From the NCBI RefSeq assembly GCF_039535475.1, contig NZ_BAAAXG010000002.1:186001-250000 (forward strand): DNA of 64,000 nt. Reading direction: 5' to 3'. Shown piece by piece: positions 35,073-42,562 of the stretch (position 1 is the first letter of the stretch; the number at the start of each line of letters is the position of its first letter). The position numbers and the translations under genes were made by a program. Under the pieces are notes generated by a model. That model searched no databases, was not told the origin of the DNA, and saw only the letters and a list, made by a program, of their open reading frames with translations. This stretch comes from Streptomyces showdoensis. Lineage in GTDB: Bacteria > Actinomycetota > Actinomycetes > Streptomycetales > Streptomycetaceae.

Positions 35073-36581
35073 TCAGGACTCCTTGTGCAGGCCGTGGGAG
35101 CGGACCAGCTCGGGGTCGGCCACGCTCGGGCGCTCCCGCCAGAACGCGGGGGACCGCAGCCGCCACGCGATCATGATCACCACTCCGGCGAGGGCGATGC
35201 CGATGCCGATCACGAGCGGGGGGCCGAGGCCGAACCACGAGGTGCCGCTGTACGAGTTCGCCGGGTCGGACATGTCGCCGACCGACCGCACCAGGAGCCA
35301 GGCGAGCAGTCCGGCACCGATGAGCGGGCCCAGCCCGATGAACAGCAGGTTGTGGACGCTCGCGAAGAGGTGGCGCCGGTAGTAGACCACGCAGGCGAGC
35401 CCGGTGAGCGCGTAGTAGAAGGCGATGAGCAGCGAGAGCGCGGTGAGCGAGTCGAAGAGGGCGTTGTCGCTGATCCGGCTCACCACGAGGTACCAGCCGA
35501 TGGCGATCCCGGCGACCCACCACGTACTCACGTCGGGCGTCCGGAAGCGCGGACTGATGTGGCCGTACGAGGCGGGCAGCGCGCGGCGGCGGGCCATGGA
35601 GAGCGCCGTGCGCGAGGCCGGGATGATCGTCGTCTGGGTGGAGGCGATCGCGGAGGTGGAGACGGCCAGCAGGAGGATCCAGTCCCAGCCGCCGAGGACG
35701 TCCGTGGCGAGCTGGGCGAAGACGAACTCCTCCTCGCCCGCGTTCTCGGCCAGGAACGCCGGGCCCGCGTACGCGACGACGGCGAACCCCACGGACACGT
35801 AGGTCACCAGCAGGATGACGGTCGACCAGAGCCCGGCCTTGCCCGGGGCGGTCGCGGAGTCCTCGACCTCCTCGGTCAGGTTGACCGCCGACTCCCAGCC
35901 CCAGTAGATGAACACGCCGAGCAGCAGACCGCCCGTCAGCGCGGCCCCGCCGGCGCCGAAGGGGTTGAGCCAGCCGAGGGCGGGCTCCACGCTGTCGTAC
36001 GCGCTCGTGCCGTTGTAGACGGCGTACAGCGCCACGCCGACGAAGACCAGCAGACAGGCGACCTGGGCCAGGATGAGGACGTTCTGCACCTTGGCCGACA
36101 GTTCGGTGCCGATCACGCACACGGCCGTCATGACGAGGATGAGCAGCACGGTGAGCGACTGCCGGGCGAAGGTGTTGTCCACCCACCCGTCCAGACCGAA
36201 CGCGAGCAGGCCGAAACTCACGGCCACGTCGGCGAGCGAACCGACCACCAGGACCCCGGTCATGGTGATGGCCCACCCGCCGAGCCAGCCGGCCCACGGG
36301 CCCATGGCGCGGGTGACCCAGGAGAAGGTGGTGCCGCAGTCCTGGTCGACCTTGTTCAGGTAGTAGAACGCCGACGCGATCATCAGCATCGGCACGAAGG
36401 ACGCGACCATGACGCCGGGCGCGTAGACCCCGACCAGGGCGACGATGGGGCCGATCACGGCCGCCAGGGAGTACGCGGGGGAGGTGGCGTTGAGCCCGAT
36501 GACGAGGGCGTCGACGAACCCGATGGCATTGGCCTTCAACCCCACGGGTCGCCCGACGGGCGCGGCGTCCTCTGCGGCCAT
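35073..36581 (-). CDS. APC-superfamily amino-acid/polyamine permease
   Basis: A 502-residue cation/amino-acid permease with about twelve membrane helices. The N-terminal helix contains IVALVGVYAPGVM and the conserved helix-6 region TEEVEDSATAPGKAG lies in a loop after GWESAVNLTE, typical of APC transporters. GGGAGCGAGGG precedes the ATG. It is co-transcribed with the UspA gene. The substrate is unknown. Confidence 0.9.
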   Translation of the reverse strand: MAAEDAAPVGRPVGLKANAIGFVDALVIGLNATSPAYSLAAVIGPIVALVGVYAPGVMVASFVPMLMIASAFYYLNKVDQDCGTTFSWVTRAMGPWAGWLGGWAITMTGVLVVGSLADVAVSFGLLAFGLDGWVDNTFARQSLTVLLILVMTAVCVIGTELSAKVQNVLILAQVACLLVFVGVALYAVYNGTSAYDSVEPALGWLNPFGAGGAALTGGLLLGVFIYWGWESAVNLTEEVEDSATAPGKAGLWSTVILLVTYVSVGFAVVAYAGPAFLAENAGEEEFVFAQLATDVLGGWDWILLLAVSTSAIASTQTTIIPASRTALSMARRRALPASYGHISPRFRTPDVSTWWVAGIAIGWYLVVSRISDNALFDSLTALSLLIAFYYALTGLACVVYYRRHLFASVHNLLFIGLGPLIGAGLLAWLLVRSVGDMSDPANSYSGTSWFGLGPPLVIGIGIALAGVVIMIAWRLRSPAFWRERPSVADPELVRSHGLHKES

Positions 36582-36723
36582 GGTCCCTCGCTCCCGTCGA
36601 GCCGGACAGAACAGCGAGACCTACGCCTTCATCGTAGGGAGGCTCCATCGGGCGTGCACGCGCAGGAGCCCCCGACGGCCGGGCGATTCACCCGGGTGCC
36701 GGGCACGAACGGGTCCGGCGAGC

Positions 36724-37257
36724 TCACGGAAGTCCGGCGGCCTGCCGGAGCGTCCGAGCGTCACTGCCGTCCAGCAGGTCCGCCAGCGTCCCCACGACGC
36801 TCGCGTGCTCGGCGAACACGGCCCGGCACTGCGCACGCTCAGGACGGTCGCCGTCACTGCCGAACCAGAAGACCGTCGCCTCGCTCTGCCCGTCGACCGG
36901 CTCGGAGAAGTCGGCGAGGACGACCAGAAGGCGCAGCAGTTCGGACCGGGCGGGAACCCTCGGGTCGCTCGCCAGGCGGAGCAGGAACGGCAGCACCGTC
37001 GGCACGGCCGGATTCATCGCGGAGATGTTCAGCAGGGAATTGCCGAGCACGCGCCGGGCCTCGGGCGCGGCGGTCTCGTCGAGAAGTCCGTGCAGCAGGA
37101 CCGGGATCGCGCCGGGGCACTCCGGGAAGTCGGACCAGCGGACCCGCTCGCACCCCTGGAGGGCGGGATGGCCGTGGCCGGCGGCGACCGCCTGCGGATA
37201 CTCCTCGAGGAACCGGACGATCGCCGTCTCCTTGGCTGCCACGTCCACCCCGCACAT
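36724..37257 (-). CDS. HEAT-repeat-like hypothetical protein
   Basis: A 177-residue soluble protein. ATG 37257 (MCGVDVAAKE) follows GGGGGCGG and starts the region of good codon bias. The middle holds alternating amphipathic helices (ARRVLGNSLLNISAMN, VLPFLLRLASDP, RSELLRLLVVLADFSEP) consistent with HEAT or armadillo repeats. No catalytic motif is visible. It lies between an amino-acid permease and the lanthipeptide locus, in the same orientation as both, but a terminator separates it from the latter. Confidence 0.7.
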   Translation of the reverse strand: MCGVDVAAKETAIVRFLEEYPQAVAAGHGHPALQGCERVRWSDFPECPGAIPVLLHGLLDETAAPEARRVLGNSLLNISAMNPAVPTVLPFLLRLASDPRVPARSELLRLLVVLADFSEPVDGQSEATVFWFGSDGDRPERAQCRAVFAEHASVVGTLADLLDGSDARTLRQAAGLP

Positions 37258-37378
37258 CCGACCGCCCCCGTCCTGCCCTCCCGGGCCATGAGTCCCGAGT
37301 TCTGCCTCTGCGGCACACTCTCGCGACCGGAGATCCGTGCGCAACCCGCACCGGCCGGACCGGCCGGACCGCACCGGG

Positions 37379-37408
37379 CCGGGACCGGTGGCAGGGCATC
37401 GGTCCCGG
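37379..37408 (-). terminator. Hairpin after lanthipeptide precursor gene
   Basis: A 9-bp perfect stem (CCGGGACCG and CGGTCCCGG) with a 12-nt loop, 20 bp beyond the precursor stop. It would end the lanKC-precursor transcript. Confidence 0.7.
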
Positions 37409-37428
37409 GCCTCGTGGGCGGCGGCTCG

Positions 37429-37542
37429 TTACATCGGCTCGGGGAAGACGTCGCTGATGCTCCAGGCGACGCTGAAGCACGGGGGGAAGGCGTTGGTCTC
37501 CGGCTCGGTGTCCAGGGACTGGAGCGCGAGGATCTGGGGCAT
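37429..37542 (-). CDS. Class III lanthipeptide precursor peptide
   Basis: A 37-residue peptide, too short for ordinary ORF thresholds. The ATG lies 7-8 nt after CGGAGA. The leader MPQILALQSLDTEPE has the ILxLQ helix motif that class III synthetases recognise (compare the RamS leader LFDLQSMETP). The C-terminal core contains FPPCFSVAWSISDVF and ends PEPM. It has one cysteine (residue 22) with serines after it (24, 28, 30) and one threonine before it (16). The usual labionin pattern, two serines followed by a cysteine, is absent. It lies 110 bp downstream of lanKC, in the same direction. Confidence 0.85.
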   Translation of the reverse strand: MPQILALQSLDTEPETNAFPPCFSVAWSISDVFPEPM

Positions 37543-37651
37543 GGTGTTCTCCGTTTCCTTGAAGGGTGTCGCTGTCGGTCACTGCATACCTGGGCGCGGG
37601 GTGTGTGCCGCCGTGCCCAGGGGGTCATGGGGCCCGTCCGGTGAGGCGTGG

Positions 37652-40288
37652 TCAGACGGTGGCCGGGAGCCGGGGGCGGGTGTGGTGGGGTTCCGTCAGG
37701 AGCGGGCCGGCCAGCAGGCGGTGCAGGGCCAGCAGGACGCCGGCCCCGCCGCTGGACAGGTCGGCGGTGAAGCGCTGCGAACCCGCGCCGAGGAAGCGGA
37801 CCCCGCGCCGGTACGGGACGGCGTACTTCAGCAGGCCGGTCGCGGCGCGCACGGCGTCCTCGCGGGCGGCGTCCGTGCCGGTGAGCTCGGCGTGCCCGGC
37901 CAGGAACCAGACCAGTCCGGCCAGCCCCCGGTACAGGCCCGCCTCCTTCGTGGCGCAGGAGACCCGGATGCCGGCGACCAGCCTCGGCAGCGCCTCGGCG
38001 CAGCGCTCGTCCGGCGCGGTGGCCACGTAGCGGGTGAGCACCGCCGCCACCCCCGCCGCGCCCGTCGCCAGGTACGGCATGGCACGGGTCGTCCGCGCGT
38101 CGTCGGACACGGACAGGGCGCCGTCGTCCAGCGGGAAGGTCCGGTCCAGCTCCTGGTGGAGCAGCAGCCGGCCCGCCTCCAGGAACCGGGCCTCGCCGGT
38201 GTCGCGGGCCAGCCGGTGGAGGAAGAGGGCGAGCCCCGAGCGGCCGTGCAGCAGCCCGCGGGCGTCGTGCTCGCCGAGCGTGGCCGCCGGGTCGGGGGTG
38301 CGCAGCAGGGCCTCACCCGCCGCGGCGGCCCGTTCCAGGTGGCCGGCGTCGCCGGTCAGCCGGTGCAGGGCGAGCCAGCCCAGGCCGACCCCGGCCCGCC
38401 CGCCGGCCAGCGTCCCGCAGGAGGAGGTGAGCGGGTGCCCGTCGGCGTCCCGGAGCAGGTCGACGGCCTCGTCCAGCAGGCCGAGCGGGGCCAGTACCCG
38501 GGCGACACCGGCCGCGCCGACGAGCAGCCCGGGGGGCAGCGCGCCGCGCAGCGCCAGCGTGTCGCGGCGCAGCCGTGCGACGATCTCCTCCGGCACGGAG
38601 GCGCCGGCGCGGTGCAGGGCGTGCACCACCCCGGCCGTGCCGTAGGCCAGGCACACGGTGTTGGTCCGGAACGCCTCGGGCGAGGGCGGGAAGGCCCACT
38701 CCGGCCGCTCGGCGTCGGCCGTCTCCAGCAGCCCCGCGGCCACCTCCTCGGCCAGCCGGGTGAGGCAGCCGTGCGGGTCGGCGTCCAGCTCCGCGGGGGA
38801 GGGCAGCCGGTCGGGACCGCCAGGGTCCTGCGTCCGGCTCCCCTCCCGGCTCTCCGCCCGGCTCCCCGTCCGGTCCTCCGGCAGGTGGAAGGCGGTCGCC
38901 CGCCGCCACAGGTCGGGCGGCGGAGCCACGTCCGCCAGATCACGCCGCAGGAGCGCGAGGTTGCCCGGCGCGTGTTCGGCGATCTCGTGGAACGGCGCCA
39001 GGAAGGCGAGCGCGACAGCCGACGCCCCGTACCGGTCCTGTAGCAGCGGATCGGCGTCGGACCGGCGCAGGCGGGACGGCGGCGTGAACCCCGGCGTGCC
39101 CATCCCGGAGGGGGCCGCGGACAGCTCCGAGGCCGCCTCGAAGTCCACCAGACGGACCCCGCCCGCAGGCGTGACCAGGACGTTGCCCAGGCTGAGGTCC
39201 CCGAACCGGTAGCCGGCGGCGTGCACCCGGCCGAGCGAGTCGTCCAGCCCGGCCAGCAGGCGCCGGCAGGCCGCGTAGTACGCGTCGACGGACTCCGCCG
39301 TGCGGTCGGCGCGGGCCAGCGGGGAGGACCGGCTCAGCCAGCCCACCAGCGGCTGCCCCTCGACGTACTCGGTGACGACGAACTCGTGCTCCCACTCCGT
39401 GAAGTGGTCCAGCGGCTCCGGGGCCACCCCGGGCGCGGCCGCGTGCAGCGCGCGCAGCACCTCGTACTCGTGCCGCAGCCGCTGCCGCGCGTCGGTCCCG
39501 TCGAAGACCAGGCCGTTGTGGGCACGGGCCTCCTTCAGGAAGACGGCGCGGCCGGTCCGCCGGTCGCGGGCCCGGTAGGCGCCGCCCGCGTTGCTGAGGC
39601 GCACCGCGCCGGTCACCTCGTAGTCGCGGATCAGGATCGGGCCCGTGTGCGGCGGCTCCTCCCGCTCGACGAAGGGGTCCACGATCCCCGCGGGCAACCG
39701 GAAGGCGGGCAGCCGCGCGTCCACGACCTCGCGGCCGGAGCCGTCACGGACCAGCCCCTCCCGGGTGCCGTCGGCCCGCAGCCGGCTGAGGGCGCCGTCG
39801 AAGGCCCCGTAGCGGTAGTGGACCGTCCGCGAGTCGCGGAAGCGCCGGTCGGTGAGGACGTACGGCCCCTCCTCCCCGTCGAGCGCGTCGCGCAGGCGTT
39901 CCAGCAGCCGGCGCGCGGTCGCCGGGTCCGGCGGATAGACGGCGCAGAACTTGCCCGACTGGGCCCGCGCGGCGTGCTTGTGATGGAGGAACAGGAAGAA
40001 GAGCCGGGCGCTCAGGTGCTTGAACGGCACGCCCTCGGCGAAGCAGATCCCGGCGACCGTGTCGAGCACGTGCTGCGCCCGGTCCAGCCGCGCCGACACG
40101 TGGATCTTCCAGCCCTGCCCGGGGCTCCCGCTCCGCGGACCGCCCCACACCGTCCAGATGCCCCGGGCGGCGCCGCGCAGTCCCGGCGGCACCGCCCGGG
40201 GGACGAAGCGCGGTCCGGGGTCGGCCACGCTGGGCAGCGGCAGGTAGTACTCCCGGTCCGCGAGCGCCTCGCCGAAGCCTTCGAGCAC
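37652..40288 (-). CDS. Class III lanthionine synthetase (LanKC)
   Basis: An 878-residue trifunctional enzyme: N-terminal phosphoSer/Thr lyase (1-220), Ser/Thr kinase (about 230-470) and LanC-like cyclase (about 510-878). In the kinase, FLKEARAHNG near 250, GDLSLGNVLV near 361 and RLVDFEAASE are the lysine, catalytic and metal-binding motifs. The cyclase has GLLHGRSGLALFL and SSCGTLAGG but lacks the CHG zinc site (LYRGLAGLVWFLAG instead), which places it in class III, not IV. It phosphorylates and eliminates serine and threonine in the precursor and joins cysteine to the dehydro residues. GTG 40288 follows GAGGAG. It is the first gene of a two-gene operon. Confidence 0.93.
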   Translation of the reverse strand: MLEGFGEALADREYYLPLPSVADPGPRFVPRAVPPGLRGAARGIWTVWGGPRSGSPGQGWKIHVSARLDRAQHVLDTVAGICFAEGVPFKHLSARLFFLFLHHKHAARAQSGKFCAVYPPDPATARRLLERLRDALDGEEGPYVLTDRRFRDSRTVHYRYGAFDGALSRLRADGTREGLVRDGSGREVVDARLPAFRLPAGIVDPFVEREEPPHTGPILIRDYEVTGAVRLSNAGGAYRARDRRTGRAVFLKEARAHNGLVFDGTDARQRLRHEYEVLRALHAAAPGVAPEPLDHFTEWEHEFVVTEYVEGQPLVGWLSRSSPLARADRTAESVDAYYAACRRLLAGLDDSLGRVHAAGYRFGDLSLGNVLVTPAGGVRLVDFEAASELSAAPSGMGTPGFTPPSRLRRSDADPLLQDRYGASAVALAFLAPFHEIAEHAPGNLALLRRDLADVAPPPDLWRRATAFHLPEDRTGSRAESREGSRTQDPGGPDRLPSPAELDADPHGCLTRLAEEVAAGLLETADAERPEWAFPPSPEAFRTNTVCLAYGTAGVVHALHRAGASVPEEIVARLRRDTLALRGALPPGLLVGAAGVARVLAPLGLLDEAVDLLRDADGHPLTSSCGTLAGGRAGVGLGWLALHRLTGDAGHLERAAAAGEALLRTPDPAATLGEHDARGLLHGRSGLALFLHRLARDTGEARFLEAGRLLLHQELDRTFPLDDGALSVSDDARTTRAMPYLATGAAGVAAVLTRYVATAPDERCAEALPRLVAGIRVSCATKEAGLYRGLAGLVWFLAGHAELTGTDAAREDAVRAATGLLKYAVPYRRGVRFLGAGSQRFTADLSSGGAGVLLALHRLLAGPLLTEPHHTRPRLPATV

Positions 40289-40362
40289 GGGAACTCCTCA
40301 CAGGGGGTGGTGGGCCGCCACAAAGGTCTCGCGCGTCGGAGGCTAGGACCGGCAGGTATGGA

Positions 40363-40391
40363 GGCGGTTCGGCGGCGGTTCGGTGGCGGTA
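40363..40391. promoter_or_regulatory. SARP-type heptamer direct repeats
   Basis: Three near-identical heptamers, GGCGGTT (40363-40369), GGCGGTT (40374-40380) and GGCGGTA (40385-40391), are separated by exactly 4 bp, giving an 11-bp period. SARP activators bind such repeats on one face of the helix upstream of -10 elements. They lie 75-103 bp upstream of the lanKC start and about 270 bp upstream of the divergent SARP gene, so lanKC is the likely target. Confidence 0.7.
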
Positions 40392-40409
40392 TGGCGACCG
40401 CCGCCGGGC

Positions 40410-40517
40410 GGAGCACCCCCGTGCCGCCGTCGGCCCGGAGCACCCCCGTGCCGCCGCCGGGCCGGAGCACCCTGAGGCACCCGACGGGCCCGGGCACCCT
40501 CGTGGCACCCCCGTGCC
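40410..40517. repeat. 27-bp direct repeats in lanKC/SARP intergenic region
   Basis: Four units of 27 bp, each beginning around ggagcaccc. The first two are almost identical and the other two are degenerate. They fill the centre of the 372-bp intergenic region (40289-40660), which otherwise contains the heptamer repeats and the SARP gene's GGGGGAGG site. Their role is unknown. Confidence 0.75.
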
Positions 40518-40660
40518 ACCCCCCGTCGCACCCGCGGGGCCTTCCGCGGGCCCCGTGGAACATGGGTGCCCCTTCCCCATGCGGAAGATCCGCCCCGCGT
40601 ACCAGCATCGGGCGTGGCCGGGCGCTGAACGGCGGGCCGGGGGCGGGACGGGGGAGGACC

Positions 40661-42562
40661 ATGGTGGCGGGGCAGGGGCGGGCGGGGGCGTCGCCGTCGG
40701 CGTTCGTCACCGGGCGGGGCCGGGACGCGGCCACGGGAGGACCGGACCCCGGAGCGCTCGCACGGCACCCGGCGCCACCCGGCACGCTCGGCTTCTCCGT
40801 CCTCGGCCCGCTCACGGTCCACCGGGACGGCAGGGCGCTGCCCCTCGGCCCGTTCAAGCAGCGGATCGTGCTGGCGACCCTGCTCGGCTCCGCCAACGCC
40901 CCGGTGTCCGTCGACGCGCTGACCGACGCGGTCTGGCAGGGGGAGCCCCCGCGCACCGCCCGTAAGAACCTCCAGGTGTACGTGAGCGCCGTGCGCGCGC
41001 TCCTCGCCGAGGACGACCCGGACGGGCCGCGGCTCACCCACACGGGCGGCGGCTACGCGCTGCGCGTGGCGGAGGACGAGCTGGACCTCCTCCGGTTCCG
41101 CTCCCTCGTCCGGGCGGCCGAGGGACAGGAGCCCCGCCGGGCCGCCCGACTCCTGTGCCGGGCCCTCGACCTGTGGCAGGGGCCGCCGCTGGGCGGCGAC
41201 CTCCGGCGGTCGCCGCGGCTGGCCGAGGAGGCCGAGCGGCTGGAGCTGAGCCGTCTCGCGGCCTGCGAGAGCTGGGCGGAGGCGGAGCTGGAGCGGGGCG
41301 GCGGGCCCGCGGTGGTCGACGGACTGCGCGGCCTGATCGAGCGGCACCCGCTCCGGGAACGGCTCCGGTCCGCCTGGATGCGCGCGCTGAGCGCGTCCGG
41401 CCGGCGGGCCGAGGCGCTCGCGGCGTACGACGACTACCGGCAGCTCCTCGCCCGGGAGCTGGGCCTGGAACCCGGTGGCGCCATGGCGGCCCGCTACCGG
41501 ACGATCCTGGCCGGCGACGGCCGCACCCGGGCGGTCGCGGCGGCCCGGCCGCCGGTCGTCCTGCCGCCCGACCTCGCCGACTTCACCGGGCACGGCGGGG
41601 AACTGGGCTCCCTCGTAAGCCTGTTGCGGAGCGACGGCCGCGAGGATGCCGCCGCCCCCGCCGTCCTGCTCTCCGGTCCCGCCGGATCCGGGAAGACCGC
41701 GCTGGCGGTACGGGCCGCCCATCTGCTCGGCGACCGGTTCGCCGACGGGCGGCTCTTCGTCCCGCTGCGGGACGCGGACGGCCGCCCCCGCCCGCTGCCG
41801 GCGGTCCTCGCGGAGCTCGCCGAACGCACCGGCCGGGTCGGCCCTTCCGGTCCCGGGGCCTGGCGCGAGTGGCTCGCGGCGCACCGGGCGCTGGTGATCC
41901 TGGACGACGCTCCCGACGAAGCCGCCGTACGACCGCTGCTCCCGTGCGGCGGACGCGGCAGGGTCCTGCTCACCGCCCGCGGCCAACTGGGCGGCCTGGG
42001 GCCCCTGCACCGGGTCGCCGCTCCGCCACCGCTCGGCGCCGCCGACTCCCTGCGACTCCTCGCAGGGCTCGCCGGTGAGGACCGCGTACGGGCCGACCGG
42101 GACGCCGCCCTGCGCATCGTGCGCGCCTGCGGCGGGTCGCCGCTGGCGGTCCGGGTGAGCGGGATGCGGCTCGCGGTGCTCCGGCGCGTGCCGCTGCGGG
42201 AGTTCGCGGACCGGCTCGCCGATCCCGCGGGGGTGCTGGACGAACTGGTCTCCGGGGACGTGTCCGTCCGGCTGCTGCTGGCCCGCGGCTGGGAGGAGCT
42301 GCCGAAGGAGCGGGGCAGGGACGCGGCGCGGCTGGCCGCGGGCACCGACGAGGGACCCTTCGGGCTGGCCGACGCGTCCGCGGCCCTCGGCTGCGACGAG
42401 CGGCACGCCGTACGGGTGGTGGAGGCGCTGATCGACGCCGGAATGGTGACGTCACCCCGCGGCGAGGTCACCGCGCAGGCGGCACGGTACGAACTGCCCC
42501 ACCTGATCAGGCTGTACGCGCGCGACCGGGAGGTCCTGACCCCCGTGCCGGCCTCGGGCTGA
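40661..42562 (+). CDS. SARP-family regulator with NB-ARC domain
   Basis: A 633-residue AfsR/DnrI-type regulator. After a 45-residue tail it has an OmpR-like winged-helix domain (FSVLGPLTVHRDGRALPLG, GGGYALRV), a bacterial transcriptional activation domain (to about 280, ending LGLEPGGAMAARY), and an NB-ARC ATPase with Walker A GPAGSGKT near 339 and LVILDD (Walker B). It stops soon after the NB-ARC winged helix, without the TPR region of full AfsR. ATG 40661 follows GGGGGAGG. The open frame continues upstream through antisense lanKC, which is not real protein. It is divergent from lanKC and probably activates it. Confidence 0.92.
   Translation: MVAGQGRAGASPSAFVTGRGRDAATGGPDPGALARHPAPPGTLGFSVLGPLTVHRDGRALPLGPFKQRIVLATLLGSANAPVSVDALTDAVWQGEPPRTARKNLQVYVSAVRALLAEDDPDGPRLTHTGGGYALRVAEDELDLLRFRSLVRAAEGQEPRRAARLLCRALDLWQGPPLGGDLRRSPRLAEEAERLELSRLAACESWAEAELERGGGPAVVDGLRGLIERHPLRERLRSAWMRALSASGRRAEALAAYDDYRQLLARELGLEPGGAMAARYRTILAGDGRTRAVAAARPPVVLPPDLADFTGHGGELGSLVSLLRSDGREDAAAPAVLLSGPAGSGKTALAVRAAHLLGDRFADGRLFVPLRDADGRPRPLPAVLAELAERTGRVGPSGPGAWREWLAAHRALVILDDAPDEAAVRPLLPCGGRGRVLLTARGQLGGLGPLHRVAAPPPLGAADSLRLLAGLAGEDRVRADRDAALRIVRACGGSPLAVRVSGMRLAVLRRVPLREFADRLADPAGVLDELVSGDVSVRLLLARGWEELPKERGRDAARLAAGTDEGPFGLADASAALGCDERHAVRVVEALIDAGMVTSPRGEVTAQAARYELPHLIRLYARDREVLTPVPASG

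Follow-up and report, generated by a model that had tools for sequence, protein, structure and literature searches.

A class III lanthipeptide precursor of Streptomyces showdoensis with a conserved C-x-S-x3-S core and a possible reversed ring

Thioethers that run from a Cys to a downstream Ser or Thr occur in class II lanthipeptides of the cinnamycin type, in which the rings are made by LanM with a zinc-dependent cyclase. Here we consider a lanA-lanKC gene pair, that is, a precursor peptide gene and a class III synthetase gene, located in a 64,000 nt stretch of Streptomyces showdoensis DNA (contig NZ_BAAAXG010000002.1, positions 186,001 to 250,000 of the forward strand; this whole stretch is called the window and its numbering is used throughout). 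Its core peptide carries Cys ahead of Ser, and a thioether from this Cys22 to a core Ser would run opposite to the Ser-to-Cys order that class III cores with labionin or lanthionine are known to have.

The LanM dehydratase differs from that of LanKC (PMC10604976). Type III (LanKC) cyclases are described as acting on the labionin motif SxxSx2-5C, and other synthetase types as occasionally acting on C*[ST] motifs (PMC11251773). The same 2024 paper proposed, on computational grounds only, a "reverse labionin" for its CxSxxS subfamily C, which is described as going with type II as well as type III synthetases and with a Cys-less second peptide. A loose parallel is found in noursin, where a new cross-link is made by a LanKC subgroup whose cyclases form a cluster of their own (PMC10206099). 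The noursin labionin joins residues 3, 7 and 15 with an S-x3-S spacing, thus an S-x3-S carbocycle has a precedent.

The precursor and its conserved core

An open reading frame (ORF) of 37 codons lies behind lanKC on the same minus strand, with a gap of 109 bases, and encodes the peptide MPQILALQSLDTEPETNAFPPCFSVAWSISDVFPEPM. An initial annotation of the window had described such an ORF with an ILxLQ-type leader, and both are present, the leader reading ILALQ. The ATG start codon is supported by the relative L066, which carries GTG at the same position. The precursor features are as follows:

37429..37542, minus strand: lanA, precursor peptide of 37 residues with leader ILALQ and a core with Cys22, Ser24, Ser28 and Ser30
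37549..37552, minus strand: ribosome-binding site GGAG, six bases upstream of the lanA ATG
37519..37533, minus strand: leader recognition motif I4-L5-A6-L7-Q8, of which L5 to Q8 are invariant in 20/20 aligned rows
37477..37479, minus strand: Cys22 codon, invariant
37471..37473, minus strand: Ser24 codon (Cys+2), invariant
37459..37461, minus strand: Ser28 codon (Cys+6), invariant
37453..37455, minus strand: Ser30 codon; Ser in 18, Gly in 2 and Thr in 1 of 21 close relatives (clade A, defined below)

The statement of the initial annotation that Cys precedes all Ser is correct for the core, where Cys22 is followed by Ser24, Ser28 and Ser30, but not for the whole peptide: Ser9, Thr12 and Thr16 precede Cys22 in the leader and linker. 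Ser9 and Thr16 are unconserved in close relatives.

A search of the genus returned a peptide of 73% identity or more (E ≤ 2e-12) in 15 of 392 genomes, own genome included, and in one further genome (G183) there are two copies that are more distant. In all of the other 14 relatives lanKC adjoins the peptide (14/14), with L040 having its lanKC in broken frames. A profile built from 20 precursor rows found the precursor in 17 of the 392 genomes at E ≤ 1.7e-15; two weak genus-search matches (G339 and G060) are peptides lacking C-x-S-x3-S. Among 394 genomes sampled class-wide, the profile search gave three strong matches including the own genome, all from the same genus, and six further ones with E of 0.004-0.01 that look like chance fragments (five of six inspected). 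The broken lanKC frames belong to S. diastatochromogenes ATCC 21481 (L040, also L091) and may be due either to faulty sequencing or to a genuine lesion.

Genome contigs were also scanned with a LanKC alignment, and the best 80 of 384 loci were kept as a named collection. Clade A comprises LanKCs of 77-90% identity (21 loci, all Streptomyces), with the precursor in view at 20; at L071 the contig ends inside lanKC. This set overlaps with the genus search, as 11 of the 20 loci come from the same genomes as 11 of its 14 relatives. Group B consists of eight loci from Streptomyces, Kitasatospora, Streptacidiphilus and Actinospica, with LanKCs 59-65% identical and 15 precursors. The 36 precursors counted hereafter are thus 21 from clade A (window plus 20, with those of L066 and L091 included) and 15 from group B. 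Two loci, L083 (8598-9000) and L084 (8592-9071), show three tandem C-x-S-x3-S precursors with alike leaders and unlike tails behind one LanKC. In Streptomyces sp. MBT53 (L045 and L079) two convergent LanKC genes have a SARP-type regulator gene between them, and the first LanKC is flanked by two group B precursors.

All 36 precursors contain C-x-S-x3-S (21/21 in clade A and 15/15 in group B), and neither the labionin motif SxxSx2-5C nor CxSxxS is found in any of them (0/36 each). The alignment of 20 rows, made of five of the 21 clade A precursors and all 15 of group B, has M1, L5, A6, L7, Q8, L10, Cys22, Ser24 and Ser28 as invariant columns. Positions Cys+3 to Cys+5, between both Ser, are variable (VAW, IYA, VSG or SGW) and the core tails differ (ISDIFPEPM, TITV- or DWSIHTA-like). 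Three candidate ring partners, Ser24, Ser28 and Ser30, had been proposed in the initial annotation. The first two are kept in 36/36 precursors, whereas Ser30 is the residue replaced by Gly or Thr in some clade A relatives.

A chance ORF is ruled out by this conserved peptide beside LanKC in relatives. Examining short ORFs at related lanKC loci, as the initial annotation had suggested, recovered both precursor and core, and supports a genuine class III LanKC and precursor pair. A different precursor nearby had been envisaged there as a refutation; among ORFs with an L-x-L-Q-like motif within 1.5 kb of lanKC at the 20 clade A loci with a precursor, the one other ORF listed is an 81-residue antisense one in L065.

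The SapB/RamS models NF033212 and PF19402 gave no match to the window peptide at E ≤ 1, while the control precursor of L127 matches both. Together with the complete lack of the labionin motif, this rules out a SapB or labyrinthopeptin type. Nor does the window precursor match NF038154 (lanthi_III_a) at E ≤ 1. Of three group B precursors scanned against that NCBIfam model, L083a scores 26.4 bits, above the cutoff of 22, and is therefore already inside lanthi_III_a; L077 and L078b fall below. An Rfam scan of 36500-41500 returned no known RNA element over threshold.

The LanKC synthetase and its relatives

The synthetase is assigned to class III by its score and by its RamC_N, Pkinase and LANC_like domains, and is alignable with solved class III synthetases:

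37652..40288, minus strand: lanKC, class III lanthionine synthetase of 878 residues with a GTG start (NF038151, domains)
39650..40204, minus strand: lyase domain RamC_N, residues 29-213
39050..39586, minus strand: kinase domain, residues 235-413
37709..38530, minus strand: cyclase domain LANC_like, residues 587-860, without zinc ligands

It passes the NCBIfam class III model NF038151 (741.5 bits, cutoff 575) and stays under the cutoff of the class IV model (407.8 bits, cutoff 650). Its cyclase shows GLYRG where two synthetases of the same genome, L057 and L058, carry the CHG zinc motif; the sub-cutoff score and the missing zinc ligands rule out a class IV enzyme. This genome (G000) harbors further LanKC/LanL-type synthetases at C17:30294-32933, C6:2468-5062, C12:267313-269970 and C4:169715-172277, of which the C17 one is over the class III cutoff, two have CHG and are class IV-like, and one is in separate pieces.

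Eight lyase and five kinase positions (Lys, Asp, Asn, Asp, Glu) are intact in all 28 rows of clade A and group B, from which L066 (no more than 14 residues readable onward of the aligned start) and L091 (broken frame) were excluded, as they were from the tree. The kinase Asp and Asn positions are presumed ones. Catalytic positions were transferred by alignment from ThurKC, in which the eight lyase positions are tied to dehydration (PMC10604976).

In a tree of 82 LanKC rows, the same 28 form one clade (SH-like approximate likelihood ratio test, SH-aLRT, 100), nested in a 32-row clade with support 100 and separate from the LanKCs of the SapB and labionin types. The tree was made by a quick method with SH-aLRT only, it has several long branches including L092, and group B itself is not recovered as one clade. 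L092, whose LanKC is 49% identical, adjoins a precursor with GGCCFSNWAS that fits C-x-S-x3-S. At L088, in the wider clade, an ORF search near lanKC found no precursor. A distant clade of eleven LanKCs contains ten loci with 12 precursors whose cores resemble NCISVLSVVEN, that is, C-x-S-x2-S (the CxSxxS clade).

Within the cyclase, Arg631, Arg677 and Arg683 are present in 28/28 rows with C-x-S-x3-S precursors, while a 22-row labionin/SapB set has Leu (21/22), Ala (20/22) and Trp (16/22) at these positions. Conversely, Arg789 of the labionin/SapB set (21/22) is Leu or Phe in all 27 clade A and group B rows having a residue there. The clade-marking positions of the cyclase flank the counterparts of ThurKC Ser608 and Asp667 in the alignment.

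Ring direction and its alternatives

Judging from these sequences, we find it somewhat probable that Cys22 forms a thioether to a downstream dehydroalanine (Dha), giving either a reversed lanthionine or, with Cys22, Ser24 and Ser28 all joined, a reverse labionin; such products are suggested by the invariance of this trio. LanKC would bind the ILALQ leader, its kinase would phosphorylate Ser24 and Ser28 in the core, also Ser30 where present, and its lyase would eliminate the phosphate to leave dehydroalanine. The computed mass of the 37-mer, 4106.94 Da, would fall by 18.01 Da with each dehydration, to 4070.91 after two and 4052.90 after three. The zinc-free cyclase would couple the upstream Cys22 thiol to one of these downstream residues. 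A simple outcome would be a reversed lanthionine from Cys22 to Ser24 or Ser28; alternatively, Cys22 could add to Dha24 and the resulting carbanion to Dha28, yielding the thioether-carbocycle. The leader protease and the exporter would be encoded elsewhere. A thioether, if formed, from Cys to a downstream Ser is one of the two closures that the initial annotation had considered, and the retention of Ser24 and Ser28 in 36/36 precursors argues for it. The narrower proposal, in which a LanKC clade specialised in C-x-S-x3-S substrates builds a three-residue reverse labionin in the N-to-C direction and the CxSxxS clade is a second, separate occurrence, we advance tentatively and regard as doubtful.

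Several observations weigh against a reversed ring. The sole precursor model matched by the window peptide, NCBIfam NF038160, gives 15.8 bits, below its cutoff of 27. On the supporting side, when the residues after Cys of the 15 group B cores are shuffled, Ser falls at both +2 and +6 in only 0.62 cores on average (maximum 6); this count is to be taken as a guide and not as a probability, since these peptides are homologous. In clade A, synonymous sites of the lanA core (synonymous differences per site, pS, of 0.057 from 21 sequences) are less variable than those of lanKC (0.171 from 15 sequences), and the nonsynonymous to synonymous ratio (pN/pS) is 0.49 for lanA versus 0.38 for lanKC. Because the clade A lanA synonymous sites are nearly invariant too, dN/dS within clade A is of little use and the conservation argument rests on group B; their excess conservation over lanKC hints at a codon or RNA-level constraint. 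A second Cys occurs in 5 of the 21 clade A precursors, and the motif is not matched by the precursors of L089 and L090, two loci of the wider LanKC clade.

The enzyme adds to these points, as nothing in it singles out the ring direction. Among columns conserved in both the C-x-S-x3-S and labionin/SapB sets, 12/47 differ in the cyclase, 8/41 in the lyase and 5/35 in the kinase (38/154 overall), so the cyclase is not enriched in differences. Arg677 and Arg683 are found in 0/11 rows of the CxSxxS family, and L092, despite its fitting precursor, keeps Arg683 only. Given that the differences are spread over the domains and that the CxSxxS family is without Arg677 and Arg683, the cyclase arginines do not prove that the direction of the ring has changed. 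A base activating Cys is not evident either, because the position of ThurKC Asp771 is Arg787 in clade A (19/19 rows with a residue) and variable in group B. Since the cyclase is not singled out, we lowered slightly our confidence in both the reversed thioether and the reverse labionin.

Closure in the ordinary direction would join Cys22 to upstream Thr12 or Thr16 and leave the core serines as dehydroalanine or unmodified. Thr12 is indeed present in 21/21 clade A precursors, and a Ser or Thr stands between LQ and Cys in 13/15 group B ones, but Thr12 is without a fixed counterpart in group B, and in L080a from Actinospica durhamensis and L083c from Streptomyces sp. CB01881, which have no Ser or Thr in that interval, only Thr2, ahead of the leader motif, would be usable. 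Thr16, the upstream partner named in the initial annotation, is unconserved even within clade A and has no counterpart in L080a and L083c, so that we rejected it. Upstream closure would also leave the invariance of Ser24 and Ser28 unexplained, and of the readings compared here it appears the least likely. An outcome with Dha24 and Dha28 but no thioether, where Cys22 remains a free thiol, ends up in a disulfide or has some other use (metal binding, partner coupling), would agree with the single Cys of 31/36 precursors, with a cyclase devoid of zinc ligands and with the unconserved ThurKC Asp771 position, and PMC11251773 warns that peptides predicted from a single Cys may be modified otherwise. 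It is nonetheless unlikely in our estimate: the spacing of Cys, +2 and +6 is fixed in 36/36 precursors, and the cyclase domain has been retained under purifying selection like the rest of LanKC.

It is also conceivable that the peptide is merely phosphorylated, otherwise processed or a silent relic, and that its core order is without chemical meaning. The patchy presence (17/392 genus genomes) would be compatible with that, as would the result that no transporter, protease or regulator family is common to more than three of 37 loci compared. Yet none of the 28 rows has lost a catalytic residue of the lyase or the kinase, LanKC has a pN/pS of 0.38 and the pair stays together in unlike surroundings, so that this explanation seems quite improbable. 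Should the thioether from Cys22 to a downstream Dha form, a zinc-free cyclase family would be able to invert ring direction, with this LanKC clade offering a natural comparison set for how such cyclases choose it and with an added ring type for peptide engineering. Being a two-gene unit, the pair is easily testable.

Surroundings and comparison with described systems

Window neighbours of the pair include an amino-acid permease, a sugar-binding protein, a universal stress protein and two regulators, one of the ROK type and one divergent:

40661..42562, plus strand: divergent regulator of the SARP type (BTAD, NB-ARC); most clade A relatives have none beside the pair

It is possible that this regulator controls the lanA-lanKC pair. 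Within flanks of up to 6 kb, shorter at some loci, a SARP homologue (52-76% identity) is found at 12/80 loci: 1/21 in clade A (L066), 2/8 in group B, 9/11 in the CxSxxS clade and 0/40 among the others. Considering called genes of at least 80 residues at the 37 loci, only the LanKC family occurs in more than three, with the limit that the gene caller misses some pairs (the window and L066 SARPs, 76% identical, were left unjoined). The pair thus seems to be a stand-alone cassette whose surroundings differ from locus to locus. A plasmid-borne cassette was considered and dropped, with no LanKC match at E ≤ 1e-100 in a plasmid collection from which records of the own or very near genomes may be excluded.

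At five Streptosporangiaceae loci (L096, L097, L110, L119 and L134), precursors of the types HPCSSLVTSYNGTACYVCV and HPCYSHVTSYANTC begin with C-x-S-x3-S and carry further C-terminal Cys. The precursors of the CxSxxS clade are located as follows:

near 3.7-4.5 kb of L100, L106, L111, L120, L121, L126, L128, L131, L136 and L139: C-x-S-x2-S precursor loci

No precursor was found at L107, which belongs to the same clade. In L121, precursor and lanKC are separated by an MFS gene, with a SARP gene behind lanKC. No LanM was found among the five L121 neighbours scanned, nor among eight neighbour proteins in the window, a search that took in neither a second peptide nor the remainder of the window. 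That the CxSxxS family seen here corresponds to subfamily C of PMC11251773 is no more than a guess.

With the reverse-labionin idea already in print for another spacing (PMC11251773), the novelty of the present case is somewhat lower than the initial annotation had claimed. The open-licence literature, as far as it was covered, held no characterised reversed class III ring or C-x-S-x3-S family, and an exact-letter search for six fragments of these peptides gave no match in open-licence PubMed Central papers.

The locus resembles the SapB, labyrinthopeptin and noursin-type class III lanthipeptides in its LanKC, which combines a lyase, a kinase and a zinc-free cyclase, and in its short precursor with an L-x-L-Q leader. 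As with class III lanthipeptides of Actinobacteria, in which an adjacent protease gene is usually missing (PMC7268733), no protease gene is seen beside the window pair. Unlike the known labionin and lanthionine peptides of this class, it belongs to a group with SxxSx2-5C in 0/36 precursors, with Cys ahead of the core Ser and with LanKCs in a separate clade. In common with subfamily C, as described in PMC11251773, it has a single Cys N-terminal to two spaced Ser, a LanKC nearby and a Streptomyces host; compared with the CxSxxS of that subfamily, the spacing of the window type, C-x-S-x3-S, is one residue longer.

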